Made by a program: the position numbers and the translations under genes. The notes under the pieces are model-generated. The model worked only from the letters and a program-made list of their open reading frames with translations. It was not told where the DNA came from and did no database searches. Positions 2,734-40,333 of a stretch of 64,000 nucleotides of DNA are shown piece by piece. The DNA comes from Tremella fuciformis (taxonomy: Eukaryota; Basidiomycota; Tremellomycetes; Tremellales; Tremellaceae): NCBI GenBank assembly GCA_032768795.1, contig CP136494.1:2293501-2357500 (forward strand), written 5' to 3'. Within the stretch, counting starts at the first letter, position 1. Each line of letters starts with the position of its first letter.

Positions 2734-3777
2734 CTATGCATACGGCAGAAGCGCCCTCACCCCTTCCAAGGCAGGTTCAGACACTCTTACAATCTGATTA
2801 CAATGCCAGCCCTCGAGGTCTATCCTCTTCTGCACCTGCTCCCAGAAGAGGTTCACCAGGCCCAACCCACCGCCCACAACCAGCATCGTCTCGCAGAGGT
2901 CCCCTCCTTCCCCGACAAGCGATCTCAATGTGTCCACCACCTCTCCCGCGACAGTAGCTACGAGACGGGCGGCCTCTGGATCTCCTTGACTTGCGGCCAA
3001 TATCACGTCTATAGAACAATCGGCGATGCGTTTCTTGCGGGCCGAGTCGGCATCAAAGTGCGACATCGAGTCGTCCAACTGCGTGGATGCCATGATGAGC
3101 TTGTCGGGATGATCGAGCCCGAATTTGGCCAAGATGGCAAAGTGCCAGGGTAGCAGAGGTCTGTCATTGGCGGCGAATGTGAGAATGCTCTTGATTCCAG
3201 CTTTACCCAGACTCCATCCACTCCCTTCGTCCCCCAATAGCGAGCCCCACCCACCACTCCGGCCTCGTTGTCGAATCTGACCTGTCGGGTCTTTGTCCCA
3301 GGAGAGAGCCAGGCTCCCCGTGCCGCAGATCAGGGTGATGCACTTGTTGATCGGGGCGCGGTAGAGCGGAGCGACGAGGAGTTGACCGTCGTTGGTCAGC
3401 CTCAGATCTGGATCACAGAACAGTCGGCATAGGGGTGCGTGAAGCTGATCAAAGTCGGACTGTCTAGCACAACCGGCGAACGCGCCCCAAATGTGTGCAA
3501 AGACAGGTCGGTCAAGCGGGAAAGAAACGTCCATCCTGCAGTCCTCTGGCAGGGCAGAGAGCGCCTGTCGAGTAGCCTCTCTGGCGGCTGAGAGACACGT
3601 CTGCAAGCCGAATGTTCTCATCCATCAGCGTTGAAGCACGATCCCCACAATACGAAGGACTCACAGGTTGGACGGTCCCGCCGTTCCCCTCGCAAAGCGA
3701 GTGTCACCTCCGTTCTTGTGCGCCACGATCGCCAATGTCTTGCTGCCCCCACCATCGATGCAAAGGTAGTAAGGCAT
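2734..3777 (-). CDS. BadF/BadG-family amino-sugar kinase, MurK/NAGK-like
   Basis: Predicted 331-residue ATP-dependent sugar kinase of the BadF/BadG/BcrA family, which includes eukaryotic GlcNAc kinase and Clostridium MurK (GlcNAc/MurNAc kinase). Phosphate-1 loop CIDGGGSKT lies at residues 6-14. GTGSLALSW and GGWGSLLGDEGSGW mark phosphate-2/sugar-binding regions, and VVGGGLGL the adenosine motif. One intron (3617-3664) follows AGPSNL and joins to TFGLQTCLSAA in frame. The ATG at 3775-3777 places the nucleotide loop at the very N terminus, as in the family. It is divergently paired with a MurQ gene across 349 bp, the same partner as MurK in Clostridium acetobutylicum (established knowledge), so a MurNAc/GlcNAc 6-kinase role is favoured. 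A plain GlcNAc kinase cannot be excluded. Confidence 0.85.
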
Positions 3778-4126
3778 GACCCTTCATTTGGTAGAGCTGG
3801 GACTGTAGCAACGGCCTCTTGAGAGTTGACTCCAGATGCATGAACGTATCTTCGGCTGGCAGGAAGAGCCGTCACTTGGCTTACGTGTTTTAAGAGCCTA
3901 GCCCGGCATAACGACCGATGTCCCTCGGGTTACTGACCGATAGGCTTATAGCCCGGCCAGATTCTCCTAGGCTCGGTAACGTCGCCATCTCCCGTTTCCA
4001 AATGGAAAGATGAAGTCCTATGAACAGGAGGAGACCATGCTCCGAGCATCGCTTATGCCAGTCTCGCATTACATATAAGCTTGAGGGCCGGTCAATCTCT
4101 GGTGGACATCATCCCCCCTCGTCACG
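3778..4126. promoter_or_regulatory. Divergent promoter between kinase and MurQ genes
   Basis: The 349-bp space between the start codons of the kinase (minus) and the etherase (plus) is a shared control region. A TATAAG at 4074-4079 lies about 50 bp before the MurQ ATG. The middle holds an inverted CGG repeat (listed separately) flanked by two direct copies of GACCGAT. No reading frame is supported here. Confidence 0.55.
3926..3939. promoter_or_regulatory. CGG-N8-CCG inverted repeat, candidate Zn2Cys6 site
   Basis: CGG at 3926-3928 and CCG at 3937-3939 are separated by exactly eight bases. Inverted CGG triplets with fixed spacing are the classic targets of Zn2Cys6 dimers (established). The same N8 spacing recurs in the other divergent promoter of this block at 8744-8757. 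Binding is inference. Confidence 0.4.
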
Positions 4127-5246
4127 ATGCCCGTCCCCACTACGGCCCATATCAACCTAGACTACCTCCAGACCGAGCTGAGAAACAAGGCCACCGAGGA
4201 TATTGATGTTGTGTCGACAGAGGATATGTGTAGTGCGTAGTCAGCCTCCGGCGGGGACGCCAAGCTCATCCGACAGGATTGATCAACGAGGCGGATCAGA
4301 CCGTCGCGCTGTGCGTCGCAAAGTGTACACCTATCATAGCGAGTATCATCGATCAGATCGCTCCCAGAATACGCAAGGGCGGACGGGTCATCTACGCGGG
4401 AGCTGGAACGAGCGGCCGTCTCGGTATACTGGATGCTTCTGAGCTGTGAGTCGAGACTTGAACGTGGGAACGTCCCCGATCTAACAAAGTCTGATACACA
4501 GGCCCCCAACTTTCTCTGCTCCGTACGGACAGTGGGTCCCACTCATTGCCGGCGGGTCGAGCGCCATACAATATGCTGTGGAAGGTGCAGAAGACTCTCC
4601 CTCGTCTGGCACAGAGGACCTAGATGCGATCTCTCCCCCACTGGATCCCGCCGTCGACTCGATCATCGGTCTTGCAGCTTCTGGACGTACGCCGTACGTG
4701 CTGGGCATCATGGAAGAAGCACGCTCCAGAGGGTGCTTCGTGGCGGGGGTCTGCTGTGTCAAACCGAGCGCAATGCGAAAAGCGGCCGAACTGGTCGTCG
4801 AGTGTCCTGTCGGCGCAGAGGTGGTCACAGGCAGTACAAGGATGAAGAGTGGAACGGCACAAAAGATGATCCTGAATATGATCTCGACGGGTGTCATGAT
4901 CAAGATCGGGAAGACCTATGGTAACTTGGTTTGTATCTTATCCCAGGTTGTGGCTCGGACTAATGCGCAGATGGTCGATGTCAAACGTTCCAATCACAAA
5001 CTGATCATACGGGCGCGACGGATATTCAGGACAGTGCTAGAGCCTTACACACTTCCCCCTCATAGTGTCCGGCTCGGAGTGGATCTGAGCGATGACTCGG
5101 GGATAGATCAGTTGATAGATGATTGCGAGGGCAGCGTCAAGCAGGGAATGGTGGCTGCGCGGTGGAGTTGCTCGCCTTTCGAGGCGAGAGCTCGACTGGA
5201 CAACGTAGGAGGCCTGCTGAGGCTCGCACTCGAGGAGCATCAATAA
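4127..5246 (+). CDS. murQ: MurQ-like N-acetylmuramic acid 6-phosphate etherase (SIS domain)
   Basis: Predicted 325 residues, the usual MurQ length. MurQ cleaves the lactyl ether of MurNAc-6-phosphate to GlcNAc-6-phosphate and D-lactate. Introns at 4233-4276 (donor gtgcgt, giving STEDMC/RLINEA), 4446-4501 (ASEL/PPTF) and an in-frame 42-nt intron at 4929-4970 (YGNL/MVDV, branch site actaat) restore family spacing. Visible motifs: [51 protein letters not shown] and [13 protein letters not shown]. Glutamates in DASE and EGAED correspond to the two reported as catalytic in E. coli MurQ. The ATG at 4127 is the first in frame, about 50 bp past a TATA-like box. Three spliceosomal introns show it is a resident fungal gene although the enzyme is typically bacterial. 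No signal peptide; cytosolic. Confidence 0.92.
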
Positions 5247-5431
5247 AGAGACATGTTGTAGAAATTATTGCATGACCATAGCATCTTCTTCAGTAGCACT
5301 GGTGACGTCAAGGTATCTTGCTTCGGCCTATATTCGGTACATAACCTCGGTCTATTGCCTGACGCACATACTACAAATCGCGACCGGCACTCTGCTGAGA
5401 GCCTGAAAGGGCCCGTACACCTCTCGACAGC

Positions 5432-6562
5432 ATGTCTTCGGCGCCGGAGCAAGCTCTGTTCGTGTCCAAACCTCGCCAACAGGGAATGAAACACTATTGC
5501 TACCGAACCTCCCCCGCTGGTTGTCCCGTACACCTGTCGATCGCCTCGCGCCCTGGGCCTGTACTGATCAGCTTCCACGGAGGCGGGATAGTCTACGGGA
5601 GCCGTCTAGGCAACTCACCCATGACGAGGGGTTTGGCAGGTCATTCCACGGTGTACAGCTTCTTGGTTGACATCATCCCAGATACCTGGCCCGGCGCGGT
5701 CGTCGAAGCAGACTACCGCCTCTTGGTGCCTTCCACGGGATATGACATTCGAGACGATGTGCGAGCCTTGTTACTCTTCCTGTCGGGCAAAGATTCACCT
5801 CTTCCCTATGTCCAAACCCAACGACATCAATTTCTGGTGATGGGTCACTCTGGTGGCGGGTACCCAATGAGGCTTGCCGCAGTCCTAGCTGCCGAAGAGG
5901 CCCTACAACCCTGTCCGCGATTCAGTATCACCGGCCTGGTCAGCTATTTCGGCATGGGGGGCGATCTACTCCACGACTATTGGCTCAGCAGCCACCGTCC
6001 TGGATGTGCCTTGCTACATACGCAAAGTGCCGAAGCGAGAGGCGATCGGTACTCGTACCCGCCCTCAGAGGCAGTGGAGCTCAACAGGAAGCTGGTCGAC
6101 TGGGCGCAGACAGCAGAGTGTTCTGCGACACACGACGCAGCAGGACCACAGCTTGAAGGACACGATCGCTCAGAGATATGGGACGCCATCCACGCTGGCG
6201 GCTGTCTGAACGATGCGATTACCGGCGAGTCGGCGTTCAGCTCGAGACTCGCCACGATCCCTCCAAACCGACGCGCAGAATATGTATCGCTCCGACACTT
6301 CGAGGTATATCCTCAGCTCTACTTTGCAAAGCATCCAGAAAGGATATCCCCCATGCTGCTCATTCATGGAAGCAACGACGACTTGGTACCCATCGAGGAG
6401 AGTGAAAAGACCTATGAGCTGTTGTCGGCCTCGGGCCGGGCGGAGCTCAAGATCTTACCTCGGGGGAATCATCACTTGATGATTGATGAAGATGCAGAGT
6501 CCAGAAAGGAAATATATCAGCACGTACTGGCATGGATGCGGCGCAGAGCGGGACTCGAGTAA
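5432..6562 (+). CDS. Alpha/beta-hydrolase, HSL-like esterase fold
   Basis: Single open frame of 376 residues with hallmarks of the hormone-sensitive-lipase-like/carboxylesterase group: oxyanion motif FHGGG near residue 50, nucleophile elbow GHSGGG near residue 145, acidic residue in HGSNDDLVP and the histidine in GNHHLM near the C terminus. The order Ser-Asp-His is correct, so the enzyme is probably active on an ester or lactone. No signal peptide is seen, so it is likely cytosolic. It follows the etherase gene in the same direction after 185 bp. A short in-frame intron between GSRLGN and DTWPG cannot be ruled out, as this stretch is longer than in relatives. Substrate unknown. Confidence 0.8.
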   Translation: MSSAPEQALFVSKPRQQGMKHYCYRTSPAGCPVHLSIASRPGPVLISFHGGGIVYGSRLGNSPMTRGLAGHSTVYSFLVDIIPDTWPGAVVEADYRLLVPSTGYDIRDDVRALLLFLSGKDSPLPYVQTQRHQFLVMGHSGGGYPMRLAAVLAAEEALQPCPRFSITGLVSYFGMGGDLLHDYWLSSHRPGCALLHTQSAEARGDRYSYPPSEAVELNRKLVDWAQTAECSATHDAAGPQLEGHDRSEIWDAIHAGGCLNDAITGESAFSSRLATIPPNRRAEYVSLRHFEVYPQLYFAKHPERISPMLLIHGSNDDLVPIEESEKTYELLSASGRAELKILPRGNHHLMIDEDAESRKEIYQHVLAWMRRRAGLE

Positions 6563-6810
6563 GCAATGCCTGAATGCTGTGCGTACCTCTGTCTCCACGT
6601 ACAACAGATTGTCTGACTGAGAGGATGTAGCACGGAGACAGACTTGTCATCGTTGCCGATATTGCATACTTGTCTCGCTCGCAATGACTACAAGAAGGAA
6701 TGAAGCGCACCGAGACAACGAGATCCCGAAGGGAGAGATGGGAGGCAGATTGTAGGGAAGATGGCGGAAGCGATGGTCGTAGCCACCTGCGATCCATCTA
6801 GGGAGCCATT

Positions 6811-8637
6811 CTACGCCTGGCCCAGTTTCTCTCTGAGCAGCTGAGCGTGATGGGCGGAGGCTTCCGTCTTCCTCGTAGCTCCAGGGCGGTCCTCTTCCTC
6901 GGATGCGAACTCTCCAAGAGCCTCCTGCTCGGTCGGCTCAGTGATTTTGAGGATCGTCGGCAAGGCCACCACCAAGCAGATGGCAATGACACACCAGTTG
7001 TTGATGAATCTATGCTATCAGTACACTACTCCGTAGGCTCGACAGGCTTGACTTACTGCTTGCGAGACGCAAGGTGATTCGCGGTCAGTCGATAGGCTAC
7101 AGCTCCACCGACGGATTGGAACGACTTGTACACTGCGACATAGCGGGCGGCCTCTTTGGGTGTGTTGCACAGAGCGCCCAGTAGCCAGTACGTGAGACCT
7201 TGCCACAGCGCGTCGAGCATGCCGTAGAAGATGTACAGGAAGCATGGACCGACATAGAGACTAGCGTCTGCAAAATCGATCGTTTGCTTCTTCGACGATT
7301 CAGCCCTGCTCATTAGTGTCAAGCCCTCTGCTCACTTGGAAGTGAGGGGGCTTACCAGTTCTGAAATGCAAGACCCCCGCCCATGATCACGTTCCCCAAG
7401 ATGAAGACGAAGATCCAGCCCGCGAGGGCACGCTTGGGGCGGTTCAGGTACTTTGTGTCCAGAAGCAGTCCAATGACAGCGCCCCCAAACATCTGTGCGA
7501 GCCAATAAAGGGCTGAGTTGAGCGATCGGGCGCGAAGGGAGAAGTTGGCGCCATTGACGAAGTTTTGCTGGTATCTGAGGATATGAGCTTGGTTGCACAT
7601 CATTTGCGGGCAAAAGACGGTGACCCACGAGTAAAACCAGTTGGCGGCAAAGCACATGGGAATGAGGGGAAAGATGCGCCAGTCGTCTTTCAGACGGAAG
7701 ATGTGTCTGATCTCGCGGCCTGCTGTACGTGTGAAGTGACTGTACCAGGGACCCGTCTCGCTCATGCCGTCTGGCAAAGGGGCAGCACGAGTGCCATTGG
7801 ATCGCCGCACCAAGTGGGCAGGGAGAAGGAAGAAGCTCAAGGCCCAGCCTACAAGCATGATGACCATGAAGGCGATATAGGTCGAGTCGGAGACGGTCCC
7901 CGCTTTAGTACGGTGATAGTTGATGCCGAGGGAGATGAACGAGCCCACGCCTCCTCCGAGATTGAAGATTGCCCAGAAAAGCGCGATGCTGCGACCTTTC
8001 TGGTGGGGTAGGGGGTAACTGATCATGATTGCGCCCTACGCGGTCAGTTCCCCTGAGTTGAGCTGTCGCGAAGGCTCTCACCTGCACGATCCAGAAGAAT
8101 GCTGCACCCAAGCCCAAGATGGCGCCGGACGCGATGACAAAAGCTGAATTGTGTCGATGATTGTAGTTCAACAAGCTCCCAGAGTATAGAGCATAGGTCC
8201 AACCGCCGAGCACGATGGTTCGGATGCCGACGATGTCAAAGACGGGCTGCGCAATGAAGATTACCGAAGCTGCCCCGACAGACAAGAGCGCTACCGAGGC
8301 GTTGGCTCCGACCTGAGCATCAGCAAGGCTCAGATAGTGGTGGCGACTATGGCAACGCACAGTGGGATCAAGCTGTCCACTACCGCCAAGCCCCGACAGT
8401 GCATTATACATGCCTGTGTGTCAGTCTAGGGACGCGCACAGAGGGAGGAGGAGATTCACCTGGCAGGCAGAAGGCGCACAAGGCCACCAGGACAATCTGG
8501 GTCCAAGACTTGACGCCGAAGCGATATGGCCAGCTGTGGCCCGCGAGGGACTGCCTCTCAAGGTCGAGCTGCCGCTGGACGATGTCGTCCTCTGTGAGTG
8601 TGGTGACATCGTGATTTGCAGTCATCTTGTCGGTCAT
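6811..8637 (-). CDS. UNC93-like MFS membrane protein
   Basis: Predicted 529-residue polytopic protein of the fungal UNC93-like (former DUF895) branch of MFS. Five introns (8414-8459, 8313-8360 in frame, 8036-8081, 7306-7355, 7010-7056) give an open frame ending at 6811. Landmarks: CLPGMYNALSGLGG in TM1, FWIVQGAIMISYP, SIALFWAIFNLGGGVGSFIS, and the long loop with RLKDDWRIFPLIPMCF before the second half, then QGLTYWLLGALCNTP. The C-terminal tail is charged and cytosolic. It is head-to-head with the secreted hydrolase gene, so an uptake role for the hydrolase products is attractive; transport by this family in fungi is poorly defined, so this is inference. Confidence 0.85.
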
Positions 8638-8913
8638 GTCGCTCCGTGAGAGTGAGGCAACGAGGGCGGATATGACCTTGACATAGTTGGGCGGTCCAGA
8701 TTATCTGAATCGGGATTGGTGTTCACACGAGTGACCTCAGTCACGGTGAGTTCACCGAGACTACATCGGGGAGAATGCCGAATCCCGGCTGTCCACTCCG
8801 GATGATAGCATGGGGTCCTCGGTAAGATGACCGGCGGGGCTCAGGTGCTTAAGACGGTACTTTGCACAGAGAGAGGGGCGATAGGTGGTCGTGTGTGGCA
8901 AGCCCCCTCCGTC
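8638..8913. promoter_or_regulatory. Divergent promoter, UNC93-like / YbbE-like genes
   Basis: A 276-bp region between two divergent start codons. It contains the inverted repeat at 8744-8757 and several further CGG triplets (for example around 8795-8800). No coding sequence is supported. Confidence 0.5.
8744..8757. promoter_or_regulatory. CGG-N8-CCG inverted repeat, candidate Zn2Cys6 site
   Basis: CGGTGAGTTCACCG: CGG and CCG separated by eight bases, the same spacing as the element at 3926-3939. The inner bases are also partly palindromic (GGTGA/TCACC), making a good dimer site. Regulation by either nearby Zn2Cys6 protein is inference. Confidence 0.42.
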
Positions 8914-10423
8914 ATGTTTTCCAACGCCTTGCTCCTTGTCCTCAGCGCGGCTTTGACTCGGTCGTACAGCATGACTGTCAAGCGCTGGGCCGGTGATTGC
9001 CCACTACAATACGGCGACCCAGAAAGTGTCGGTCTGCTGGCCCAGCCATTCGCCGACCTGCAGGCCAACACGAGCGACTACCTGACCGCTCGAAACTGTA
9101 TGTCGCCGCTTCAGCCATAAACCTGACTCACTGATAGACTCTTCGTATACGTACGACAAGGTTCACCCTCTTTATCCGGGCGCAACCGTATTCATAGGAC
9201 ATGACAACACAATTGTCTCGCACTTCTCGGTGGGCAAGGCGTTGCTATACGCAGATGCGAACGGAACATACCTTCCGGAGGATGAGCAGATCGATATGCT
9301 TGACGACTCTATCTACGACCTGGCGTCCCTCACCAAACTTTTTACCACCGTCCTTGCTTTAGACCAGATCGGTCAAGGCAAGTTGAGCGTAAACGAGACG
9401 GTCGTGACCTACCTACCGGAGTTTGCCGCAAACAACAAGTCGACAATCACCATCGAGCAGCTCATGACTCACACGAGCGGTTTCGATGCGGACCCCGTGC
9501 CACCGCTGTATCCCAACTACACGACTTACGAGGACCGCAAGACTGCTGTGATCACCCAAGCCCCCATCAATCCGCCGGGTACGACGTATCTCTACAGCGA
9601 CTTGAACTTCATGAATCTCGGATTCGTGCTCGAGACAATCACGGGCAAGACCTTGGATACTCTACTGGAAGAACGGCTGACCGGTCCTCTGTGCATGGCA
9701 GACACCTTCTATAATAAGGGCAACGCGGAGTACCGTGATTCTCATCATCTTGGGAATGTGAAAACGACTGATGGCAGTGCCCCAGTACTCCCGCATGGTG
9801 GCGGAAGAGTTCCAGATAGAGGTCCTTGGTGCGACGTATGAGCCTCCCCGTCCTCAGCCAGTACGGGGAACGTGCGTTCCCAGACCCCTCTGTCGCGGAA
9901 CACGCTGATCAGCAGCGTTCACGACGAGAACGCTTGGGCTTTGGACGGGGTGTCTGGACATGCAGGCATCTTCTCTACTGCCTACGACATCGCTGTATTC
10001 TGTCAGATGATACTGAACAACGGCTCTTACAACAATGTCAAGATCCTTGAACCGTGGACCGTGGATCTGATCTTCCACAACTATAACACTGCATGTGGGT
10101 ATACCCTCCTCGAACACCCATCGACACATACCGTCTGAGATCGGAAGGGCTGATGGCCAGTCCCAACCGATGCGCATGGCTTAGGGTTCGAGCTAAATCA
10201 GACGTACTGGTCCGGGCCCATGGCGAGTCTCGAGACCGCCGGACACACCGGTTTCACGGGGACAACGCTCTTCATCGACAGGCCGAGCAATACTTTCGCA
10301 ATCTCTCTAACGAATCGAGTGCACCCTTCGCGCGGGTGGTCGAGTACCAATATCGCCAGGGAGTACGTCGGTTATTTTGTGGCGCAGGCGTTGGACCGTC
10401 ATCCTAGTGGGACAAGTAACTAG
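8914..10423 (+). CDS. Secreted serine hydrolase, YbbE/PBP4*-like beta-lactamase family
   Basis: Predicted 438 residues. Residues 1-19 (MFSNALLLVLSAALTRSYS) form a signal peptide; several Asn glycosylation sites follow. The serine-lysine motif is SLTK (about residue 124, in DLASLTKLF), and the Tyr motif is YSDLN. The stretch VRGTVHDENAWALDGVSGHAGIFST is typical of the YbbE-type proteins that accompany MurNAc operons in Bacillus-like bacteria (established context). Introns: 9098-9137, 9735-9777, 9872-9915, 10095-10160; the joined frame is divisible by three and ends at 10421-10423. Likely a secreted esterase/peptidase acting on peptidoglycan-like material, but other beta-lactamase-fold esterases look similar, so the substrate is inferred. 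Confidence 0.87.
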
Positions 10424-10469: not shown

Positions 10470-12555
10470 TCATAATGTCATGATGGTGTTTGCTGGGTCC
10501 ATGGATGAGCCTAGTTGGAGCTGGTCCGCAGGATCACCAAATATACCCGTGAAATCTTCCCAGAACGAGTCGCTTCCCGTGTAGGCAGCCAGACCGAGGT
10601 CGAAGCTGATCGGGCCAGGGCTGATGACGGGTAACACTGGTGCAGGAAGGCCCATGGCCGCAGTCTGGAGCCGTTCATCCAGCTTGACCAATAGTTGTCG
10701 TCCTGTGCCCGCCAACGTACTGGATAGGGGGGCCATGAGGCGATGCACGTCTCGCGCGAGATTGTCACCTTTGCTTCAATATCTACCCCCCTCTTTTCAG
10801 TCTGACGCGATCGGCTCACCACCTTCCACGGAGAGGGTCAGACTGGCGATGAGGGTTGAGTGGGTGAACAATTTTGGCCATAGGACCAGCATCGTTGCCC
10901 ACTTTCCAACGGCCAGGCCGAGTAAGTCCCTCGCCGCCTTTTCGAATTGAGGACCCATGAGCGGATCACCCTGACTCATATACCCGTCCATGGCGAACAC
11001 CGCCACTTGGTAGTACAGAGTGAGCAAGTCCAAAATGAAGCCGATGCCTCGACCCCCGGGAAGCGGTTCTGATGGTAGTCCTGGACGTCAGACTGTAAAC
11101 GCGCAGGATGAGCAGGGAATGTAAACAATCACGCACGATGAGTCTCGTGTACCCATCGATCAAACCATTTGACAATGTCTGCCTTGCTCTGTCGGAGAAC
11201 ATGGACAACGGCATATGACAAACCCGCGTCAGAGGGTCCTTTCAACGCCACCATGACGAGGCTCTTTGCGGAGACGAGAGATCTAGTGACCACGCGCAGG
11301 ATATCGAACAGCTCGTTCAGCGCGTTGAGAAGGACGTGGTTGCTGTTGCGGGCGGGGACGCCAGGCGGGGGCGTCTCCGGGACGATAGGTTGGGATAGAT
11401 GTAACAAGCCGTGAGACACACTGGTCATCTACACTTGTGAGCACAGATGTAGGACAGGGTTGCACAGTCTGCGCCTGGCTGACCTCGAGGAAATCCCAGA
11501 CTCGCCGACTTCTCACGTCCTCTTGATCAGGGACGGTCGTTTCCAAAAAGGCACCATAGATGAGCCCCGAGGTCATTTCGTCGGCTTTGAGATGCCAGGT
11601 CCTAGCGATTCCTAAACCGACCACGTCGTCCCAGGACTTTGGCCTGGTCTCGTACAGGAGCCGGACAAGCGCCCGTTGAAAAAGCTCTTCCCACACCTCT
11701 ACCGAAGTGGCCAACCGACCGGAATAGCGTCGGGCAGCCGCATTGACAATGGACGCGAACAGCAGTGGGGACGGTGGTGTTGTATCTGGGCCAGGGTTCG
11801 CGAGAAACCCGTGAAAGATGGCAAGATTATCGTAAAAGCTACATTGTCAGCTTGAGGGATCAACATGACATGATCAAGCGAACCATTGCCAAAGCACGGC
11901 GGCATCCTGGATCAAGGCAGGAAGGGCGGTGGGTCTCTGCAGCTCGGTCAAAGCGGGAGTGAGCGCCGTGCAGAGCCTTTCGAGACCAGGGGACAGCGTG
12001 CCTACAGCTGGCGACAGCAGGATGGCAGGAGCCGCAGTAATGGGCGGGAGACGGGCATGGCTGTGACTGGAATTGGACAATCTTTCCAGCTCGGCGTTCT
12101 TTGTTCTGAGCTCGTCCACCTGCCGCTGCAGGCCAGATAGGCGTTTCTCGATGGTCTGTTGCCTGACAGGTCAGTCATACTGTCGAACGCTGCTCCTGCG
12201 GGGCAGGCGAACTAGACTCACCATTGCAAGTCGTTGAGATGGAGTGCGGCGTTTGATCTGGGTCGTATCACGCACTCGATGCCATCGGCCTTGCATCTGA
12301 TAGTCAGGGAGAGGGCTTACATCGCAAGTCGGCTCGATCACCTGGAGCAGGGTGTCTCGTTCTGGCCGTCGCACTGTCTATGAGCGTGTCCTCCTGCCTT
12401 CAGATGTTTGTACGCACCTTTACTTTCTGACGCCTACAATGCATACAGGCTACGCCCCGCCTTCCATTGTGTGAATCAGCCTCGTGCCGCGTATTCTCAA
12501 GCAGGTGTACAGGCGTCCTGGGCATCTCGGTGTCGAAAGGGATATGCGAGTGCAT
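10470..12555 (-). CDS. Zn2Cys6 transcription factor (regulator 1)
   Basis: Predicted 575-residue nuclear regulator. Binuclear zinc cluster ACMHCRRQKVKC...CSRC...C starts near residue 37 and is split by two introns. A leucine-rich coiled coil follows (LQWQQTIEKRLSGLQRQV), then the fungal-specific transcription factor domain with WEELFQRALVRLLYETRPKS. Seven introns: 12374-12417, 12297-12341, 12163-12221, 11839-11883, 11429-11483, 11081-11136, 10769-10822; the total length is divisible by three. The ATG at 12553-12555 is the first in frame; another lies 10 codons later. The acidic C terminus (FWEDFTGIFGDPAD) could activate transcription. It ends 46 bp from the serine hydrolase gene (tail to tail). 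It is a natural candidate to read the CGG-N8-CCG sites; this is inference. Confidence 0.85.
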
Positions 12556-25145: not shown

Positions 25146-25885
25146 GATTAAAAGTCCCAGTACTCGACCTAGGCTCACGGCAATCCCTAGCGGTCACAAA
25201 AGCAGAGCCTTGGTGCAGTGGTTAAGCTGCCAGGCTTGGATTCTTTCTCATTCTGTGGACGGCAGTACCTTTTGGCGCTGTTCGCTTCCCGTGTGGGATT
25301 AGCTGTCGAGTCGCGGTCCTCCAGTACTCTTGTGTGCGCTGGTTGTGACTTCTCGGCAGGGAGTCTAGAGTTCGAGTACCACGAGGTGCGGCATAGCGGG
25401 CATTCGGCAACGTCGATCGTCAGACCCGTGCAAGTCACACCGCTCTCGGTAGTCGACAAACCGAGACGGAACGCCTTGTTCGATCCGTCACGTCCTGGAG
25501 GGCGGTTTTGCCTTGGACGTGCGCGTTGTCCTGGAGGGCAGGTTTTTGCCTTGGACACGGAAGACGGAGAACTGGAAAGGCGGTGTTTGCCTTGTTCAAC
25601 CGGAAAGCCCACCACTCTTGGGCGGGAGAACTGTTAAGGGCGGGAGTAACGCTCTGCACCGTGCTGGTGTAGGAGAAGCGGGCAGTCTAGCTTCGGCTCA
25701 GACGTAGACATTGTCTTCGGACGGTGTGAAAATCCAGATTATCACTGGTGGCGTGCACGGAGAGGCCCTTGGTGCACGTCTTGCGTACGATAAGTCCTCT
25801 CCGAGAGTTTGATCACTCTGTTTAAGGCTGTTGCTGAATTTGCGACGGATAAGGCCTTGGTCGTCATCACCTATTCTACGGCACG

Positions 25886-28800
25886 ATGAACGACAATTTC
25901 ACTTCAACCACCACTGCCGCCCAGGCAATTCCCTTCCTCTCGACACCCCGCGGCTACTTCAAATGGCGCTTTGCTGTCCGCCTTGACCTCACTACGGCGG
26001 GATGCATTGGCATCATTGAAGGTACGGATGTCGAACCGTACAGGACGGGTGGAGCTGGAGGAGTGCCAGTGCGCACGGCGCGTGCTGGGTCAGTAGCACC
26101 TGAGGGAGACACGAGTCTCACAGGTGGCGTGCTGGGCACCGCAGAGCTCAAGCGGTGGGAGGAGTGGAGAAAGCGGGAATACTATGCGCAAGGTGTCATC
26201 CTACGCAGGTTAGACCCGGGGATTCAGATGGAGATCTCAGAGATGAAGTCGGCCAAGGAGATGTGGGATTGGCTGGAACGGGACATGAAGCGCGAGGACC
26301 CCGCATACAAGGCATCCACCGATGATGCTCTACGCGCTATCCGCCTTCTTGCCAACGCCACTGTCAAAGATCACGCCGATCATCTCAACAAGTTCAACTC
26401 TCTCTTCTTCGAATCTCAACAAGCCGGTAACAAGTACGAGGACTCCACCCGCGCTCTTATTTTCCTCAATACTCTTGTCAACAACCCACGTTGGGACATC
26501 CCTATCCAATTGCTCGAGTCATCACCCCTTTACGAGCAAAGCTGGTCGGAAGTCCGACAATTCTATCAAACCCAAGTATCACGGTGGGAGGCCAAAGGTC
26601 TACCGTGGAAGGAGGCTCAGCCTGCAGCTCAACTGAACGCTGCGGAGAAGGGCGAGCGGATCTCCTTGGAGAAGGGTGCGAAGAAGGGTGGCTGGAAAGC
26701 CAAGAGTGCAGGAAAGGGCACAAAGATGGTGTGCTGGACTTGCAACAAGGAAGGGCATCTCAAGCGAGACTGTCCAGAAAAGACAGGCATCCGAGGGAGC
26801 AGCAAGGCGACCAAGGGTAAAGGAGAGAAGCAGCAGGATGGCGAAGAAGACCGACTAGTCAACTTCTTTGCGGGCGCTACCTTCTCGGAACAGGCCCTTG
26901 CCTCGACCTCCTCAACGCCAGAATTCCTTGTCGATAGTGGATGCACGCACCATGTGTCCCCGTACAAGCATTTGTTCACCGACCTCAGACCTCTGAAAGA
27001 GTCTGTTGTATTTCATGTCCCTGGTGGTCACCAATTTACGGCAACCATGACAGGCGACATTGTCATTACCACATCCTCCGGACACAAGATCAAGCTGCTC
27101 GATGTCTATTATCATCCTCAGACAACGAAGAACATGCTTTCAGCCTATACCCTCATCGACAAAGGCTGGAGTGTCAAGCTCAAGGAGGAGACCGTGGAGG
27201 TGGGACCTATCAAGGTCAAGGGAACACGGCGAGGAAACTTGCTGTGGGTCAAGCTTGGTGCAGTACGCCACACAGAGCTTGAGGATCCAGTGAAGCTGGA
27301 CGTGAGGGAGATCAACGCTCTCACTGTCCGTGAAAGCCCACTGGAGGAGGAGCACAAGCGTCTAGGACATATTGGACGAGAGAAGCTCCTGAAGCTGGCC
27401 GGTGATGGCCATCTACGGTATTCTAAGGAGGAGTTGGAGAAGGACAAGTTCAGGCTGGATGACTGCGACGCTTGTCAAGCTCGGAAAACAACTCGACCTC
27501 CAAAGAATGGTGAAAGCCCTCGAGGGCAGGCGGACTGCGAAGTCATACATGTCGACATCGCTGGTCCTATGGACCCCTCAAAAACAGGCTTGCGGTATTA
27601 CCTCGGTATCATTGATGATCACTCAAAGATCAACAATGTGGTTCCCCTCGTCAACAAGCAGAACGTCTTCTTCCACGTCATCAACTTTGTCAACAGGATT
27701 GAGCGGCAGACTGGTCACAAAGTCAAGTTCATCAGGACAGATGGTGGCGAGGAGTTCAAGAGCGACAAAGCTTTAGTATTCTATCATCAGACTGGCATCA
27801 TTCACCAAATCTCGCCACGGTACACACCTGAACTCAACGGAGTGGCAGAAAGGTTCAACAGAACGGTGAAGGAGATGATAGGAGCAATGCTTTCCTCGGC
27901 AAATCTTGGACATGAGTACTGGGATTACGCAGCCAAGTACACCTCAGTGATGCTCATGAAGACGGCATGGGGAGGAGACGGCGTCAATGCTTGGACAAAA
28001 TTCACTGGAAGAAGTCCAAACCTGGCGCACACTCTCATGTTTGGCGAGCTGGTCTTTGCTCAGATCCCAGCAGAGATCAGGAAGAAAGCAAGACTGGATA
28101 CGGACAAAGGAGAACTGGCACGGGTCATGGGGGTGGAGATACAGCGGAGCGGCTGGTTGGTGAGGATGGAGGGAGATGGGCAGCTGCACATCAGTCGTGA
28201 CGTCAAGAGCGCATCTGGACACCCTCTCACACCGGACAACACCATCGTTCCAATTGATACACCACAACAACCCCCGGCAGTCACAACAGAAACAGTTCCT
28301 CCGGCGCCGGTTGCCATTGCACCAATATCCATGGCACAAGTCCGACCAGTACAAGCGGCTGCAGACATTCCAAGTCAGGAAGAAGCTGCTCGGGAACCAG
28401 AGAGGAGAGAGGAAGTGTCCATGCAGGAGAAGGAGGGAGAGCAGCAGCAGGTGGAAAGGGCATTGGAGCAAGCATTGCCGGTCAATGCTGCTCAGGAAAC
28501 TACAACGCCCGACACACTGCTGGACACCCTCCCTGTACCGACACCGCCTGAAGTTGTGCCACCACCCATGCCAGTGAGGCGCAGCAACCGTGTTGCAGAA
28601 AGGGCAACCTCTGTTCACGAGGCAAACCTAATGCAGGCATGGCACGGAGAGGATGCAAGGGGAGCATACCTAGCATCCGAGACAAGGCTAGAGGAGGACA
28701 CATCCTCGGGAGAATCAGAGCCTCAAACAGCACGAGAGGCACTGATGGGCAAGGATCGGGATAGCTGGAAGGCAGCAATGCTGAGGGAGCTCGACAACAT

Positions 28801-30289
28801 TGAGTCAAAAGGGACTTGGGTCGAGGTGATGCTCCCACCTGGTCGGAAGGCCACAGCATCTCGATGGGTTTTTGCTCGAAAGTACGATGCAGACGGCAAG
28901 GTCATCAAGCACAAGGCGCGCATCGTGGCAAAAGGCTTCTCTCAACAGCCTGGGGTTGACTACGAGTTGACCTATGCACCCGTAGGACGGATGGCAAGTC
29001 TACGGCTTCTCCTTACTTTGGCGGCAACACTGGGTCTCAAGTTACGCCAAGCGGATGTCGAGGGAGCATATCTCAATGCAGACCTAGACGAGGAGATTTA
29101 CATGGAGCACCCCAACGCAGTGGTCAAGAAGCGACAGGGGACAGTGCTCCGCCTTCTCAAGTCACTGTACGGGCTCAAGCAATCTGCAAGAGTCTGGTGG
29201 CTGGAACTCGGCAAAGCTCTGCGCAAGCTAGGGTTCAAGAGGCTTGAGGGAGATTGGGGCATGTACTACAGGCCTGGCGGGAAGCATGGTGGACCAATGC
29301 TTATCCTTGCCTGTGTGGACGACATGGTGATGGCGGGAAGGAGTGACAAGGAGATTGATGTGGTCATGGCGGCATTGAAGAAGCAATGGGTGATGACGGA
29401 GATTGGCGAGATGAGCCAGATCTTGGGACTCAAGGTTGTCCGAGACCAAACAAAACGAGTCATTCACCTTTCTCAACCCGCATACATCGACAAGGTTGCT
29501 CTACGGTTCCCGGGACACTCTCATCACAAGTCACTGGTAGTCCCACTGCCTACGCACCGGGATGGTCAACCAGCAGTCACCGCACATGACAAGGCCGCCC
29601 CTCTCTCACCCTTTCAAGCAGTGGTCGGATGCTTGATGTGGATTGCAGCATCCACCCGACCAGATATCAGCTTTGCGACCAACTACTTGGCACGGTACAG
29701 CTCAGCACCACTGGAGTCACACTGGCGACTAGCAATGCGCGTAGTTGCCTATTTAGCCAAGACACGCACTCACGGGCTGGTCCTCGGAGGAGTAAGCATG
29801 AGTGGCGTTGAGGGATGGGTGGACTCCGACTTTGCTGGATGTGTGGTCACACGGAGATCCACAACGGGCTATGTGTTCAAGGTGTGCGGATCAGCAATCA
29901 GCTGGATATCAAAGAGACAAGCGACGGTTTCAACATCAACGCTGGAGGCGGAATATGTTGCGATGGCGGAGGCAGCCAAGGAGGCAAAGTGGTTGAGCGG
30001 GTTGATGGAAGAGATAGGCTGGAGAAAGAGGCCGACAACTCTCTACTGTGACAACCAGGGCGCTCTCACTCTTGCGGAAAATCCTGGCATTCATGCCCGC
30101 ACAAAGCATATTGAAGTCCGACATCACTTCATACGAGAACAGGTGGAACGAGGAGAGATCAGATTGATCTATGTCCAGAGCGCAAACCAGCATGCCGACA
30201 TCCTCACCAAAGCCTTACCGGGTCCGCGGCTCTTGAAGAACAGGGAGGATCTGCGGATAGAGGCAATTTGGACGGAGCAGGATGGGTAA
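25886..30289 (+). CDS. Copia gag-pol polyprotein of element A
   Basis: 1,467-residue polyprotein in copia order. Gag with zinc knuckle CWTCNKEGHLKRDC (about residue 285). Aspartic protease VDSGCTHH. Integrase zinc motif (HKRLGHIG...CDACQARK) and catalytic core (VIHVDIAGPMD, RTDGGEEF, HQISPRYTPELNGVAER). A variable Pro/Gln/Glu-rich linker follows, then reverse transcriptase (QADVEGAYLNADLDEEIY, catalytic box CVDDMVMAG instead of the commoner YVDD) and RNase H (DNQGALTLAENP). No stop or frameshift is seen, so the element may be autonomous. Confidence 0.95.
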   Translation: MNDNFTSTTTAAQAIPFLSTPRGYFKWRFAVRLDLTTAGCIGIIEGTDVEPYRTGGAGGVPVRTARAGSVAPEGDTSLTGGVLGTAELKRWEEWRKREYYAQGVILRRLDPGIQMEISEMKSAKEMWDWLERDMKREDPAYKASTDDALRAIRLLANATVKDHADHLNKFNSLFFESQQAGNKYEDSTRALIFLNTLVNNPRWDIPIQLLESSPLYEQSWSEVRQFYQTQVSRWEAKGLPWKEAQPAAQLNAAEKGERISLEKGAKKGGWKAKSAGKGTKMVCWTCNKEGHLKRDCPEKTGIRGSSKATKGKGEKQQDGEEDRLVNFFAGATFSEQALASTSSTPEFLVDSGCTHHVSPYKHLFTDLRPLKESVVFHVPGGHQFTATMTGDIVITTSSGHKIKLLDVYYHPQTTKNMLSAYTLIDKGWSVKLKEETVEVGPIKVKGTRRGNLLWVKLGAVRHTELEDPVKLDVREINALTVRESPLEEEHKRLGHIGREKLLKLAGDGHLRYSKEELEKDKFRLDDCDACQARKTTRPPKNGESPRGQADCEVIHVDIAGPMDPSKTGLRYYLGIIDDHSKINNVVPLVNKQNVFFHVINFVNRIERQTGHKVKFIRTDGGEEFKSDKALVFYHQTGIIHQISPRYTPELNGVAERFNRTVKEMIGAMLSSANLGHEYWDYAAKYTSVMLMKTAWGGDGVNAWTKFTGRSPNLAHTLMFGELVFAQIPAEIRKKARLDTDKGELARVMGVEIQRSGWLVRMEGDGQLHISRDVKSASGHPLTPDNTIVPIDTPQQPPAVTTETVPPAPVAIAPISMAQVRPVQAAADIPSQEEAAREPERREEVSMQEKEGEQQQVERALEQALPVNAAQETTTPDTLLDTLPVPTPPEVVPPPMPVRRSNRVAERATSVHEANLMQAWHGEDARGAYLASETRLEEDTSSGESEPQTAREALMGKDRDSWKAAMLRELDNIESKGTWVEVMLPPGRKATASRWVFARKYDADGKVIKHKARIVAKGFSQQPGVDYELTYAPVGRMASLRLLLTLAATLGLKLRQADVEGAYLNADLDEEIYMEHPNAVVKKRQGTVLRLLKSLYGLKQSARVWWLELGKALRKLGFKRLEGDWGMYYRPGGKHGGPMLILACVDDMVMAGRSDKEIDVVMAALKKQWVMTEIGEMSQILGLKVVRDQTKRVIHLSQPAYIDKVALRFPGHSHHKSLVVPLPTHRDGQPAVTAHDKAAPLSPFQAVVGCLMWIAASTRPDISFATNYLARYSSAPLESHWRLAMRVVAYLAKTRTHGLVLGGVSMSGVEGWVDSDFAGCVVTRRSTTGYVFKVCGSAISWISKRQATVSTSTLEAEYVAMAEAAKEAKWLSGLMEEIGWRKRPTTLYCDNQGALTLAENPGIHARTKHIEVRHHFIREQVERGEIRLIYVQSANQHADILTKALPGPRLLKNREDLRIEAIWTEQDG

Positions 30290-30357
30290 AGGACTGGTGA
30301 TAGCGAGCCCGGCAGTTTGGGTAGCACCAGGAGACTCAAGAGCGGCGGCAGAGGGAG

Positions 30358-30474
30358 TGTTAGCGGTGCCGCCACCTCGAGTCATAGGGTAATTACCGAG
30401 AAACTCCGTCAGCTAGTAGGACCCATTACCATCTCGTAGGATATGTCGGATGCGACTCATATCTCACGTTAACA
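30358..30474 (+). repeat. 3' LTR of element A
   Basis: 117 bp, matching the copy at 25029-25145; followed by target duplication CCCTT. Confidence 0.93.
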
Positions 30475-30519
30475 CCCTTAGAATGTGATTTCATTACGTA
30501 ACTTCCTTCTAGTAATGGC

Positions 30520-30645
30520 TGTTGAATCGCGGACGAGCTGGGAAGAGAGAATTCAATCGTGCTATCTCTATGAGTGGTGGCTATATGTAGTTTCGTCCTT
30601 CTACGGTAATTCCTATAACCCCGCAGTGGCGGCTAACCTTCAACA
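30520..30645 (-). repeat. 3' LTR of element B
   Basis: 126 bp, matching 44242-44367 by eye; flanked outside by ATGGC. Confidence 0.92.
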
Positions 30646-30661
30646 CTCCCCTTTAGACGTC

Positions 30662-30813
30662 TGTAACAATGCCAATAACCTACCACATAGCTATTGCACT
30701 GTCCAGCTAATACCACTGCACCAAAAGGGTCACGATAACCCGAGTCTGACCAAGACTCGCGGTTTGTGGTACATATAGGCTTGCAAGGTGGCGGTGTCAC
30801 GTCCGACGTGACA
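30662..30813 (-). repeat. 3' terminal repeat of element D
   Basis: 152 bp, same as 31010-31161 by eye. The end carries a palindrome GTCACGTCCGACGTGAC. Confidence 0.9.
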
Positions 30814-30995
30814 CTCTGCCCCACCTCCCATAGGCGCGCCCTCGCGCCTATTGCCCCTCCCCCGAGGTGCAAGCCTATCTGGAACCCGAAAAGGATCCCC
30901 TAGCAGCCGCAACGTGTCCTACACGAAGGCCCAGCGCCAGGTCTTTTCAAAACACCGTCTCATCCCACTCTGGGAATCGAACCTAAGTGTCCTTA

Positions 30996-31008
30996 GACTC
31001 GGGTTATT
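30996..31008 (-). other. Candidate self-priming primer-binding site of element D
   Basis: Minus-strand ATAACCCGAGTCT, two bases inside the element from the 5' repeat, is an exact 13-nt complement of AGACTCGGGTTAT located about 67 nt into the same repeat, just where transcription would start. This is the arrangement of Tf1-type self-priming (established in Schizosaccharomyces Tf1); its use here is inference. Confidence 0.6.
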
Positions 31009-31009
31009 A

Positions 31010-31161
31010 TGTAACAATGCCAATAACCTACCACATAGCTATTGCACTGTCCAGCTAATACCACTGCACCAAAAGGGTCACGATAACCCGAGTCTGACCA
31101 AGACTCGCGGTTTGTGGTACATATAGGCTTGCAAGGTGGCGGTGTCACGTCCGACGTGACA
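31010..31161 (-). repeat. 5' terminal repeat of element D
   Basis: 152 bp. In minus orientation it carries a TATATG about 30 nt before AGACTCGGGTTAT, the likely RNA start, and a pol III A-box-like TGGTGCAGTGG. Confidence 0.9.
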
Positions 31162-31516
31162 ACGTCACTGCACCTCTGCACGCCATCAAGGCTGCCGTGC
31201 TCACTGTGCCACATTTGCCACCCATCTCATAACTCCTCATAACTCCAGTCCCTGAATGAGCGTCAACACGACCGCTCGACTCGTCGCCGCCGTCTCTCTT
31301 TCTCCTCTATACCGTCCAGTGATCCCGGGGTGACGCCAGTGAATTCCCGGATCCCCTGGGTGAGGAGCAGTGTCCTGGCCTGACCCGCCGGCCTGCAGTG
31401 GTCTCGAGGCGGGATCCTATCGGTCGGGACCTCGGTTGCGAGCGGGTTAGCACCCGGGGCGAACGCGGCGGTTTCAGAGTCTTCAACAGATTCCCGCTTA
31501 GCGAAGAAGTACACGC

Positions 31517-33845: not shown

Positions 33846-34449
33846 TGTTATGACCTGTCCCTGGCAAAGGGGAAGTCTGATCCAGAGACAGGATAGACGA
33901 CAGAGGTTTACAGCAAGCTTGGCCCAAGACTGACAGGGATGGGCCGTAGTGCCGGTCAAAAGGTCGACAAAAGAGTGTATAAGGTCAAGTAAAAGAGTGT
34001 GGGGTAAAGAGTGACTATGAGTAAGTAAGGAGGTGGCGATTTGGCTGGGGCTGGCCAGTATTAGGGATAAGGAGGTGGTAGGGAGGTGGAGTAGGGGTAG
34101 GAGAAGGAATATGAGAAGTACGATAGTTTTGGTTCTTGGGGAAATGGTCCAGAAACCCCCCGCTATATATATCCAAGCGCCTCCCACGTTGTGACTGTTC
34201 TACACCGCCACATTGTTGCAAAGTGCTCATCCACAATCCCACATTGAGGTGTTGTTGTAGCACGTCCCTACATTGCGGTTCTGTGCACCCTCAGTTCCTC
34301 GTTGTGGCCGTGTGTTGCCTCAAGAGCACAATGCGGCTTTGTGTATCCTCTAGAGCACATCGAGGCAACGTGAGGCCACACCTTGCGTCACGGATTGTTG
34401 TGGGTCGTTTCTTGTGTGAGGAACTTGCTGAATAGGTCGGGTCATGACA
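33846..34449 (-). repeat. 3' LTR of element C
   Basis: 604 bp, same as 41543-42146 by eye; begins at target duplication CCTTC. Confidence 0.93.
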
Positions 34450-36050: not shown

Positions 36051-36181
36051 CGCCTGTGGATTGTAGAAGATTGGTTGTTGTAGTTGTTGAATATCCATGT
36101 TTGCTTTGGTTTGCTGAGCAATGGTTGTTGATGGTTGATAGGTTGGCCTGGGGCTGTCCCAGGCAGCTGAATTTCGCTTCC

Positions 36182-36195
36182 TACCCCGCGGGGTA
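36182..36195. repeat. Perfect 14-bp palindrome at the cargo junction
   Basis: TACCCCGCGGGGTA, surrounded by CTTCC on the left and GGAAG on the right, lies where the hexamer-rich segment gives way to the 5' region of cargo gene 2. Possibly a regulatory or recombination site. Confidence 0.4.
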
Positions 36196-36303
36196 AGCCT
36201 GGAAGCGACCACTCTTCAAGTAAACAGCCCAGCCACCCAGCTTTTCTTCTTTGCCCTTCTCTCTTTCTGACCCTCTAACCCCTCTGACTTCTAGCTTCCA
36301 ACC

Positions 36304-36660
36304 ATGGCACCCAACCAGAACAAGGATACCACAGCTTCCAAGAGGAGGAAGCTTCCTGTGAGTGAGAGAGAGGCTACTGTCAATGACCCTCCCTGCTCTG
36401 CCTGCTTCAAGGCCAAGAGGCCCTGCCTCAAAGTTGAAGGTCCACACAAGTGTGCACACTGCAACAAAAACAGGGGCAACTGTTCTCTCTACAATCCTGC
36501 TGGAGATGAGAGGAAACAGCTTCTTGGTGAGTTGGAAGAGCTCCACAAGGATCACTTCCAGCTTCTTCAGCTCATCCAGGTGGATGACAAGGATGCCATC
36601 AAGAAGAGCAAGAAGCTTCTTGAGGACAAGGTAAAGCAGCTCTATGAGGCTGCTGAGTGA
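36304..36660 (+). CDS. Antisense cargo gene 2 in element C, small Zn2Cys6 protein
   Basis: Single-exon frame of 118 residues with good start context (aaccATGGC). Layout: basic N terminus with KRRK, a perfect binuclear cluster spacing C-x2-C-x6-C-x8-C-x2-C-x6-C (CSACFKAKRPC then CAHCNKNRGNC), and a charged helix at residues 72-116 (ELEELHKDHFQLLQLI) that could dimerise. It looks like a minimal DNA-binding protein without an activation domain. It lies on the strand opposite to the end of pol. Similar small Cys proteins occur in basidiomycete genomes; a role in control or targeting of the element is inference. Confidence 0.65.
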   Translation: MAPNQNKDTTASKRRKLPVSEREATVNDPPCSACFKAKRPCLKVEGPHKCAHCNKNRGNCSLYNPAGDERKQLLGELEELHKDHFQLLQLIQVDDKDAIKKSKKLLEDKVKQLYEAAE

Positions 36661-40313: not shown

Positions 40314-40333
40314 GCATCCATTAGGCTGGAGGT

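Follow-up and report, generated by a model that had tools for sequence, protein, structure and literature searches.

A probable gene cluster for catabolism of bacterial MurNAc in the fungus Tremella fuciformis

Muramic acid is a sugar of bacterial cell walls, and soil holds much carbon and nitrogen in the form of peptidoglycan; to our knowledge, MurNAc has been regarded as food for bacteria. Among the closest described systems is the murR / murQ-murP-yfeW divergon of E. coli (NC_000913; available portion of PMC5061867), which resembles the fungal locus described here in combining MurQ, a YfeW-type S12 hydrolase and a transporter in a divergent, regulated layout, and the same chemistry would be expected of both. 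In E. coli, however, a PTS transporter phosphorylates MurNAc and MurR is the regulator, whereas the fungus has a kinase, an MFS transporter, a candidate Zn2Cys6 regulator and genes with introns. A second system is murQ-murR-murP-amiE-nagZ-ybbC of B. subtilis, where, according to the same portion of PMC5061867, AmiE (YbbE) attacks extracellular muropeptides as a MurNAc-L-Ala amidase. It likewise joins MurQ with an AmiE-type hydrolase, but its NagZ, MurP and MurR have no counterparts among the fungal cluster genes; neither the MurP PTS transporter nor MurR lies beside the fungal MurQ, where a UNC93-type MFS transporter and a Zn2Cys6 protein are found instead. The fungal locus is predicted to work like a bacterial MurNAc operon without being a member of the MurQ divergon class. 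In fungi, clusters for GlcNAc use (dac1, dam1, hxk3; PMC4950302) share clustered amino-sugar catabolism, a kinase and a GlcNAc transporter with our locus, but MurQ and an S12 hydrolase go unmentioned in the available text of that paper, and the words muramic, etherase and peptidoglycan are absent from its main text. Finally, Camponotini ants have acquired murQ from Spiroplasma/Mollicutes (PMC13320244), another case of a eukaryotic murQ of bacterial origin, although no partner genes are named in the available part of that 2026 paper, which calls the transfer potentially unique to these ants.

The locus lies in a 64,000-nucleotide stretch of Tremella fuciformis contig CP136494.1 (assembly GCA_032768795.1, positions 2,293,501 to 2,357,500), hereafter the window, in whose coordinates all features are given. 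The five genes that the sequence-only reading had placed there are present and intact in this 28-Mb fungal genome at the positions it gave, match the families it named, and yield full-length proteins once GT-AG introns of 40–66 nt are removed. These splice models were made by hand; for MurQ, splicing is independently supported by P0001, whose contigs, 1105 bp at most, encode the full 325 aa at 98% identity and, since the unspliced window gene measures 1120 bp, most likely represent a spliced transcript from a near relative. The introns in all five gene models agree with the earlier claim, as does the divergent pairing of kinase and MurQ. The kinase, an amino-sugar kinase of the NAGK/MurK type (BadF family), occupies 2734..3777 on the minus strand (exons 3777-3665 and 3616-2734; 331 aa), while the MurNAc-6-phosphate etherase MurQ occupies 4127..5246 on the plus strand (exons 4127-4232, 4277-4445, 4502-4928 and 4971-5246), across a 349-bp spacer.

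The best explanation for the set, to which we assign a probability of about 0.7, is the one originally proposed, namely a fungal cluster for catabolism of MurNAc or muropeptides by a bacterial-type route; the etherase score, the active-site glutamates, the neighbouring kinase and MurQ genes of Cutaneotrichosporon, the grouping of the hydrolase and the origin of MurQ support it. Judging from its family, the putatively secreted YfeW/AmiE-like hydrolase would trim peptides from muropeptides outside the cell, and the UNC93-type transporter, by its position, may import the MurNAc. The kinase, by its family and pocket residues, would then convert MurNAc to MurNAc-6-P, which MurQ, given its family score and both active-site glutamates, is predicted to cleave into GlcNAc-6-P and D-lactate. 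GlcNAc-6-P would proceed to fructose-6-P via NagA and NagB, whose candidate genes lie on a different contig, and D-lactate would be consumed via D-lactate dehydrogenase. Exon matches to NagA and NagB, each a single exon below curated cut-offs, are found on contig C1 with a second kinase between them, C1 being home to the genome's own GlcNAc cluster, and FAD-oxidase_C genes, possibly encoding D-lactate dehydrogenase, occur at two places. Counting against the proposal, a genome search gave no match for GH25 lysozyme, and the NagZ model drew weak matches (best 44.6 against 207). If true, this reading would add fungi to the consumers of MurNAc, with a fungus feeding on bacterial walls, and would mean that fungi and bacteria are linked by metabolism as well as by killing. 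No paper on a fungal MurNAc pathway of this kind was found in the literature searched.

Both divergent promoters of the locus, the one between kinase and MurQ (3778..4126) and the one between transporter and S12 hydrolase (8638..8913), contain CGG-N8-CCG palindromes, at 3904 and 3926 in the former and at 8744, 8767 and 8820 in the latter. The genome rate predicts 0.23 such sites in the two promoters, against the five observed (p 4.9e-6, or about 3e-4 when corrected for 63 tests), and no words of 9–11 bases common to both promoters were found. A Zn2Cys6 transcription factor gene adjoins the cluster at 10470..12555 on the minus strand, starting at 12555, with exons 1–4 modelled as 12555-12418, 12373-12342, 12296-12222 and 12162-11874; the last of these runs to its own stop, leaving the 3′ end unsure, and the gene's stop lies near 10470. 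This candidate regulator probably activates the two divergent promoters by way of the palindromes, and the gene set is apparently co-regulated. Neither palindromes nor regulator formed part of the sequence-only reading, and the combination of shared sites and adjoining Zn2Cys6 gene is new here. Three CGG-N8-CCG sites at L021 5229-5357 might point to co-regulation with the GlcNAc cluster on C1, but L023 likewise has three within about 200 bp.

An alternative, which we consider rather unlikely, is that kinase and MurQ alone form a unit that clears incoming MurNAc or muropeptides, for detoxification or signal control, with the other three genes being unrelated neighbours. Linkage in other fungi, as judged by locus tags and contigs, lends this idea some credit, in that the only conserved neighbour relation visible is that of kinase and MurQ in one species, Cutaneotrichosporon spelunceum (tags CspeluHIS016_0112550 and 0112560, both with the same contig size of 4,034,848). 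The hydrolase, which has homologues in many fungi, is unlinked to MurQ in all four comparable cases (Kockovaella, Naematelia, Trichomonascus and Penicillium riverlandense), and in Kockovaella the kinase is not linked to MurQ either; both observations count against the MurNAc cluster. A conserved gene order in relatives is seen for kinase and MurQ in Cutaneotrichosporon but not for hydrolase and MurQ in the four fungi compared. Against so small a unit stand the palindrome common to both divergent promoters, the genome's matches to hydrolase and MurQ, which fall only in the window and 3.7 kb apart, and the bacterial loci that combine the same three families. MurQ is present at 39 of the 80 bacterial loci that carry related kinases, and a YfeW/AmiE-type hydrolase occurs at 18 of those 39 as opposed to 4 of the 41 without MurQ (Fisher p 0.00035). 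A wider reading, to which we give even odds, is that fungi have a Zn2Cys6-controlled regulon devoted to living on bacterial peptidoglycan. MurQ and a YfeW/AmiE amidase would have come into it from bacteria, either early in fungal history or by a single uptake followed by exchange among fungal classes, and would have been combined with an amino-sugar kinase that had been duplicated and with an MFS importer; in that event the use of MurNAc would be an ancient trait that fungi have kept patchily.

The etherase itself has to be weighed against animal GKRP, since a MurQ-like protein could conceivably be a sugar-phosphate-sensing regulator devoid of etherase activity. The Pfam domain name of the window protein refers to GKRP, and databases already carry annotations of fungal MurQ, some naming the homologues etherase and others glucokinase regulator, a mixture of names in several fungal classes for which the MurNAc reading would account. 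The PF20741 GKRP-like_C domain has no match in the window protein or its genome, nor in 17 named fungal homologues according to a precomputed domain list, and its absence has been counted in favour of the regulator; the window MurQ passes the TIGR00274 equivalog, narrowly, without that domain (305.8 bits, cut-off 302). Its active-site residues Glu91 and Glu119, presumably E. coli Glu83 and Glu114, are both kept in 18 of 18 fungal rows, while bacterial rows have Glu at these places in 43 and 42 of 44 (one exception, L048, is probably a misframed row). In human GKRP, the first SIS domain has Ser for Glu91 but the second aligns Glu at both places, so that active-site residues alone do not settle the matter. 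Together with the first-domain serine, the equivalog score, the single-SIS length and far closer PDB matches to MurQ structures (1e-69 to 1e-63) than to GKRP (1e-18) leave a GKRP-type regulator with a slim chance, and we judge it unlikely.

Highly improbable, too, is the suggestion that the cluster serves another amino sugar or N-acyl compound, in which case the S12 enzyme would be an esterase or serve defence in the manner of a beta-lactamase, and the kinase would be a spare GlcNAc kinase. For the kinase this has some appeal, as its sampled sister in the tree, within a Ktedonobacteria-type group, is the distinct kinase of the same genome's GlcNAc cluster, and it could prefer GlcNAc. It scores 35.6 on PF01869 (gathering score 31.5) and 40 against 370 on the NCBIfam NagK equivalog NF046058, for which reason it is not filed as a bacterial NagK. 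Its best PDB match is the MurNAc/GlcNAc kinase 8zo3 (E 2.7e-9), which we take to be C. acetobutylicum MurK; 8zo3 is also the top PDB hit of the GlcNAc-cluster kinase, and the match was accordingly set aside as proof of specificity. Overall similarity to 8zo3 is low, but the pocket letters are the same (RSGGWG, against SRGWG in the GlcNAc-cluster kinase), GGW being present in seven of seven window-type kinases, and small residues stand where MurK holds the lactyl ether, a comparison drawn from the available part of PMC10465942. Human NAGK also has GGW, so that these letters are permissive rather than diagnostic, and it phosphorylates MurNAc according to the portion of PMC9477735 available. As to the proposed likeness to the C. 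acetobutylicum pair of MurQ and BadF kinase, a BadF-type kinase does stand beside MurQ, but its nearest sampled relative outside its own type is the GlcNAc-cluster kinase and not the Clostridium enzyme. Kinases with MurQ neighbours do not form a clade of their own and are mixed with others, and two further kinase-like loci occur in the genome (C1:7994247 and C8:1436293).

The S12 and alpha/beta-hydrolase families are broad, which again leaves room for another substrate. The S12 hydrolase, of the YfeW/AmiE (UPF0214) kind, lies at 8914..10423 on the plus strand (five exons, 438 aa), has a hydrophobic N-terminus and is putatively secreted, and scores 183.5 against 27 on PF00144 (Beta-lactamase). 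It has the motifs SLTK (SxxK), YSD and HTG, and the latter two are common to MurQ-locus enzymes, whereas E. coli AmpC and AmpH carry YAN/YSN instead and lack HTG; MurQ is not known to act on anything but MurNAc-6-P, which also counts against the proposal. On the PBP4B equivalog the hydrolase reaches 193.6 bits, below the cut-off of 385, as do eight tested bacterial MurQ-locus hydrolases (139–221), and for all eight, tested from 18, PRK03642 is the best NCBIfam family. In a tree from which AmiE is absent, the fungal hydrolase has L028 as its sister (98/93), followed by YfeW (96/90); between E. coli YfeW and P0241, the homologue from Papiliotrema, identity is 34%. The enzyme described earlier as secreted and YbbE-like does group with those of bacterial MurQ loci, but stands nearer to YfeW and an Oceanobacillus enzyme than to the main Bacillus set, and it is seemingly an old acquisition of fungi from bacteria. 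The transporter (6811..8637, minus strand; six exons, 529 aa) scores 44.8 against 22.9 on PF05978 (UNC-93), a family with 12 of its 17 genomic matches outside the window. No support for Ngt1 as an UNC93 member was found in the literature searched, and it is therefore by position alone that the transporter is a candidate MurNAc importer. The alpha/beta-hydrolase (5432..6562, plus strand; two exons, 362 aa, or 376 aa if its single 42-nt intron, across which the frame stays open, is retained) is likewise a candidate member by position.

Bacterial contamination or recent insertion, which might be suggested by the mostly bacterial or unnamed species among the listed matches below the fungal ones, is rejected on the basis of introns in all five gene models, a 2.36-Mb contig and a fungal MurQ clade supported at 100/100. 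This clade unites MurQ of Ascomycota and Basidiomycota amid bacterial MurQ, which bears out the ancient bacterial origin proposed for the gene, to be read from the tree as an old fungal acquisition, and contradicts the potentially ant-only murQ transfer of the available part of PMC13320244. One of 39 MurQ ORFs (<240 aa) was excluded from both trees, and the second tree also omitted the long rows L048 and L056. A MurQ-kinase fusion in yeasts was discarded, the C-terminal extensions of P0048 and P0037 having no similarity to the kinase profile. Bacillota as source was rejected (fungi with ten Bacillota rows, AU test p 0.0005); Chloroflexota are favoured, weakly, with Thermoflexales sister to fungal MurQ at 98/85 in 69 rows and 91/87 in 67, and fungi joined to four other Chloroflexota rows giving an AU test p of 0.057.

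The five genes at 2734..10423 are rated here as a bacterial pathway for MurNAc catabolism that has been rebuilt in a fungus and here includes a kinase, a transporter of the MFS type and, probably, a Zn2Cys6 switch. The analysis documents gene content, family membership, key residues, ancestry, a single conserved gene pairing, and promoter sites held in common; the nutritional role of the cluster and all activities are inferred. The genome of T. fuciformis comprises 28.14 Mb on 11 contigs, the window (G000:C5:2293501-2357500) stopping at a contig end (2,357,500 bases), and the five gene models were hand-built from GT-AG introns. That the introns are correctly spliced, as the sequence-only reading held, gains support for MurQ, where the model is 98% identical to the database protein P0001 over all 325 residues. 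The source contigs of P0001 are at most 1105 bp, shorter than the 1120 bp of the unspliced gene, and therefore most likely represent a spliced transcript; judged by these lengths, the gene is probably transcribed and its introns removed as in the model.

MurQ scores 305.8 bits against the curated etherase equivalog, passing its cut-off of 302, and finds MurQ entries among the solved structures with E-values from 1e-69 to 1e-63. It retains Glu91 and Glu119; Glu occupies these places in 18 of 18 fungal rows and in 43 and 42, respectively, of 44 bacterial rows. Human GKRP has Ser at the first active-site place in its first SIS domain, and its second aligns Glu at both places within an otherwise dissimilar stretch, so residues alone fail to part MurQ from GKRP; judged by scores and length, the two families do separate. 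In a tree of 69 rows, 18 fungal sequences (the window MurQ and 17 named proteins selected among the 120 matches listed) and four unnamed rows form one MurQ clade (100/100), within which yeasts (Trichomonascus, Priceomyces), Agaricomycetes, Tremellomycetes, and Pezizomycotina make separate groups. The sister row of the fungal clade is a Thermoflexales (Chloroflexota) MAG (98/85, or 91/87 with two long rows dropped), and a grouping of the fungi with ten Bacillota MurQ rows was rejected (p 0.0005). Fungal MurQ thus looks like a single old bacterial acquisition, patchily kept or passed between fungi, in keeping with the ancient bacterial origin proposed from the sequence. The Tremellomycetes join the Pezizomycotina (96/84) and not the Agaricomycetes, a misfit with plain descent that may reflect transfer between fungi or an error of the tree. 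No MurQ match was found elsewhere in the fungus's own genome. The MurQ of some yeasts (database proteins P0048, from Priceomyces, and P0037) carries an extra C-terminal region of ~150 aa that is not kinase-like.

The window kinase is a BadF member by a weak but significant match, and its best solved relative is the MurNAc/GlcNAc kinase 8zo3. At the place that holds the lactyl ether in MurK, for which a structural argument is available (PMC10465942), it reads RSGGWG, identical to 8zo3. Human NAGK, with GGW at that place, is reported to phosphorylate MurNAc (PMC9477735), and a NAGK-type enzyme can therefore carry out this step. A kinase of the same kind lies between NagB and NagA on contig C1 (PF01869 31.2 vs 31.5, just under the cut-off) and reads SRGWG; two further weak paralogues occur in the genome. 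A tree of 89 rows, which drew on 73 of 75 kinase-positive loci, unites the seven tremellomycete kinases of the window type (100/98). Their sister is the C1 kinase, and kinases of the Ktedonobacteria type surround both; the position of the C1 kinase is rough, owing to its long row and to a bootstrap that had not converged. In this tree, kinases from loci that hold MurQ do not separate from the others. Named fungal relatives among the matches listed come from Cutaneotrichosporon, Kockovaella, Saitozyma, and a Tremellales isolate; like the best hydrolase matches, they indicate a basidiomycete of Tremellomycete-like affinity.

The hydrolase was described as secreted and YbbE-like; kinship with enzymes of MurQ loci stands, and its best NCBIfam family is PBP4B/YfeW, at a score (193.6 bits) below the cut-off of 385. 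In E. coli, yfeW follows murQ and murP, and the ybbE product of the B. subtilis murQ cluster, AmiE, is described as a MurNAc-L-alanine amidase acting on extracellular muropeptides (PMC5061867). Among the best 80 of 358 confirmed bacterial loci, fetched with the kinase profile, MurQ occurs in 39 and an S12 relative in 22, the latter in 18 of 39 loci with MurQ vs 4 of 41 without (Fisher p 0.00035, a rough value because loci are related and some contigs short). PBP4B was the best family for all 8 of the 18 MurQ-locus hydrolases put to NCBIfam. BadF kinase, MurQ, and S12 hydrolase occur together in L028, L043, L046, L064, L078, and other bacterial loci (Bacillota, Acidobacteriota, Chloroflexota). 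A hydrolase tree of 39 rows, including all 22 bacterial loci with an S12 relative, places 14 fungal rows in a single clade (100/99). Sister to it is the Oceanobacillus enzyme of L028 (98/93), whose gene and that of its MurQ are 4 kb apart on opposite strands, and YfeW branches next (96/90); the exact sisters are unsure because several rows are long. The best named matches are from Papiliotrema, Naematelia, and Saitozyma (72-73% identity), and every organism-named one of the 120 matches listed is fungal; the distribution of the enzyme among fungi therefore extends beyond a single cluster. No match to this hydrolase was found in the fungus's own genome outside the window.

Among relatives, kinase and MurQ adjoin by locus tag in Cutaneotrichosporon spelunceum (CspeluHIS016_0112550, CspeluHIS016_0112560), where their contigs also agree in length, and lie on different contigs in Kockovaella imperatae. 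Hydrolase and MurQ are unlinked in all four other fungi comparable in both match lists: on different contigs in Naematelia and Kockovaella, and by their locus tags in Trichomonascus (TRVA0_003S01442, TRVA0_002S02366) and Penicillium riverlandense (N7474_007195, N7474_010039).

Shared promoter palindromes and an adjacent Zn2Cys6 gene are additions to the sequence-only reading. The divergent promoters (3778..4126, 349 bp; 8638..8913, 276 bp) hold five CGG-N8-CCG palindromes, at 3904, 3926, 8744, 8767, and 8820, with 14 in the remaining 63.4 kb of the window. At the genome-wide rate (11,024 in 28.14 Mb), 0.23 would be expected vs the 5 observed (p 4.9e-6). The motif was first seen on scanning spacings 0-15; correction for the 63 tests of the later count, which covered three orientations and spacings 0-20, brings p to about 3e-4. 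In ~114 kb sampled, at least three sites fell in 0.19% of 276-bp stretches and at least two in 1.6% of 349-bp stretches. Inverted CGG repeats are the usual type of target of Zn2Cys6 regulators. The gene adjoining the hydrolase, which starts at 12555 (-), encodes a complete Zn2Cys6 domain (PF00172, 42 vs 21 bits), and its product is a putative binder of these sites.

A separate GlcNAc cluster (G000:C1:6002060-6008437) encodes NagB, the NAGK-type kinase, and NagA, with exon matches for NagB at C1:6002060-6002852 and NagA at C1:6007124-6008437, each under the whole-protein cut-off; with these two enzymes the pathway would reach fructose-6-P. Two places in the genome hold FAD-oxidase_C genes, whose family comprises dehydrogenases of D-lactate and of some other 2-hydroxyacids. 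The Trichoderma GlcNAc cluster is described with a hexokinase-type enzyme where C1 has the NAGK-type kinase (PMC4950302). Three CGG-N8-CCG sites fall within ~130 bp between NagB and this kinase (L021 5229-5357); one regulator joining the GlcNAc and MurNAc gene sets is possible, and chance may account for them, a similar group occurring in locus L023. Relatives of the window transporter occur at several places, one at C1:5992086-5993077, ~9 kb from NagB (UNC-93 22.1 vs 22.9 for the best exon), a position that gives no more than a hint of amino-sugar transport. For the alpha/beta-hydrolase, the matches are to broad families of esterases and peptidases. No GH25 lysozyme was found and matches to the NagZ model were weak; the fungus may therefore rely on fragments released by other organisms or by enzymes of other kinds.

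Databases already name fungal MurQ proteins as such, and a murQ appears in the list of chitin-pathway genes of a paper on a Monascus genome (PMC9159588). A 2026 ant paper calls murQ transfer previously unreported and perhaps unique to Camponotini (PMC13320244). MurNAc use in such fungi is apparently undescribed, as had been supposed: no account of fungal MurNAc catabolism was found in a search of mostly open-access literature, most items being judged by title and abstract opening.

Upstream of the cluster lies an acyl-CoA thioesterase N-terminal domain (1813-2502, -) without visible link to it. Beyond the Zn2Cys6 gene, a gamma-glutamyltranspeptidase gene (PF01019; 13618-16149, -) could encode an enzyme for gamma-D-Glu peptides, with no evidence linking it to the cluster. 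The stretch that separates the cluster from the contig end holds, at 25853-40352, long open frames that by eye resemble Ty1/copia- and Ty3-type retrotransposons.
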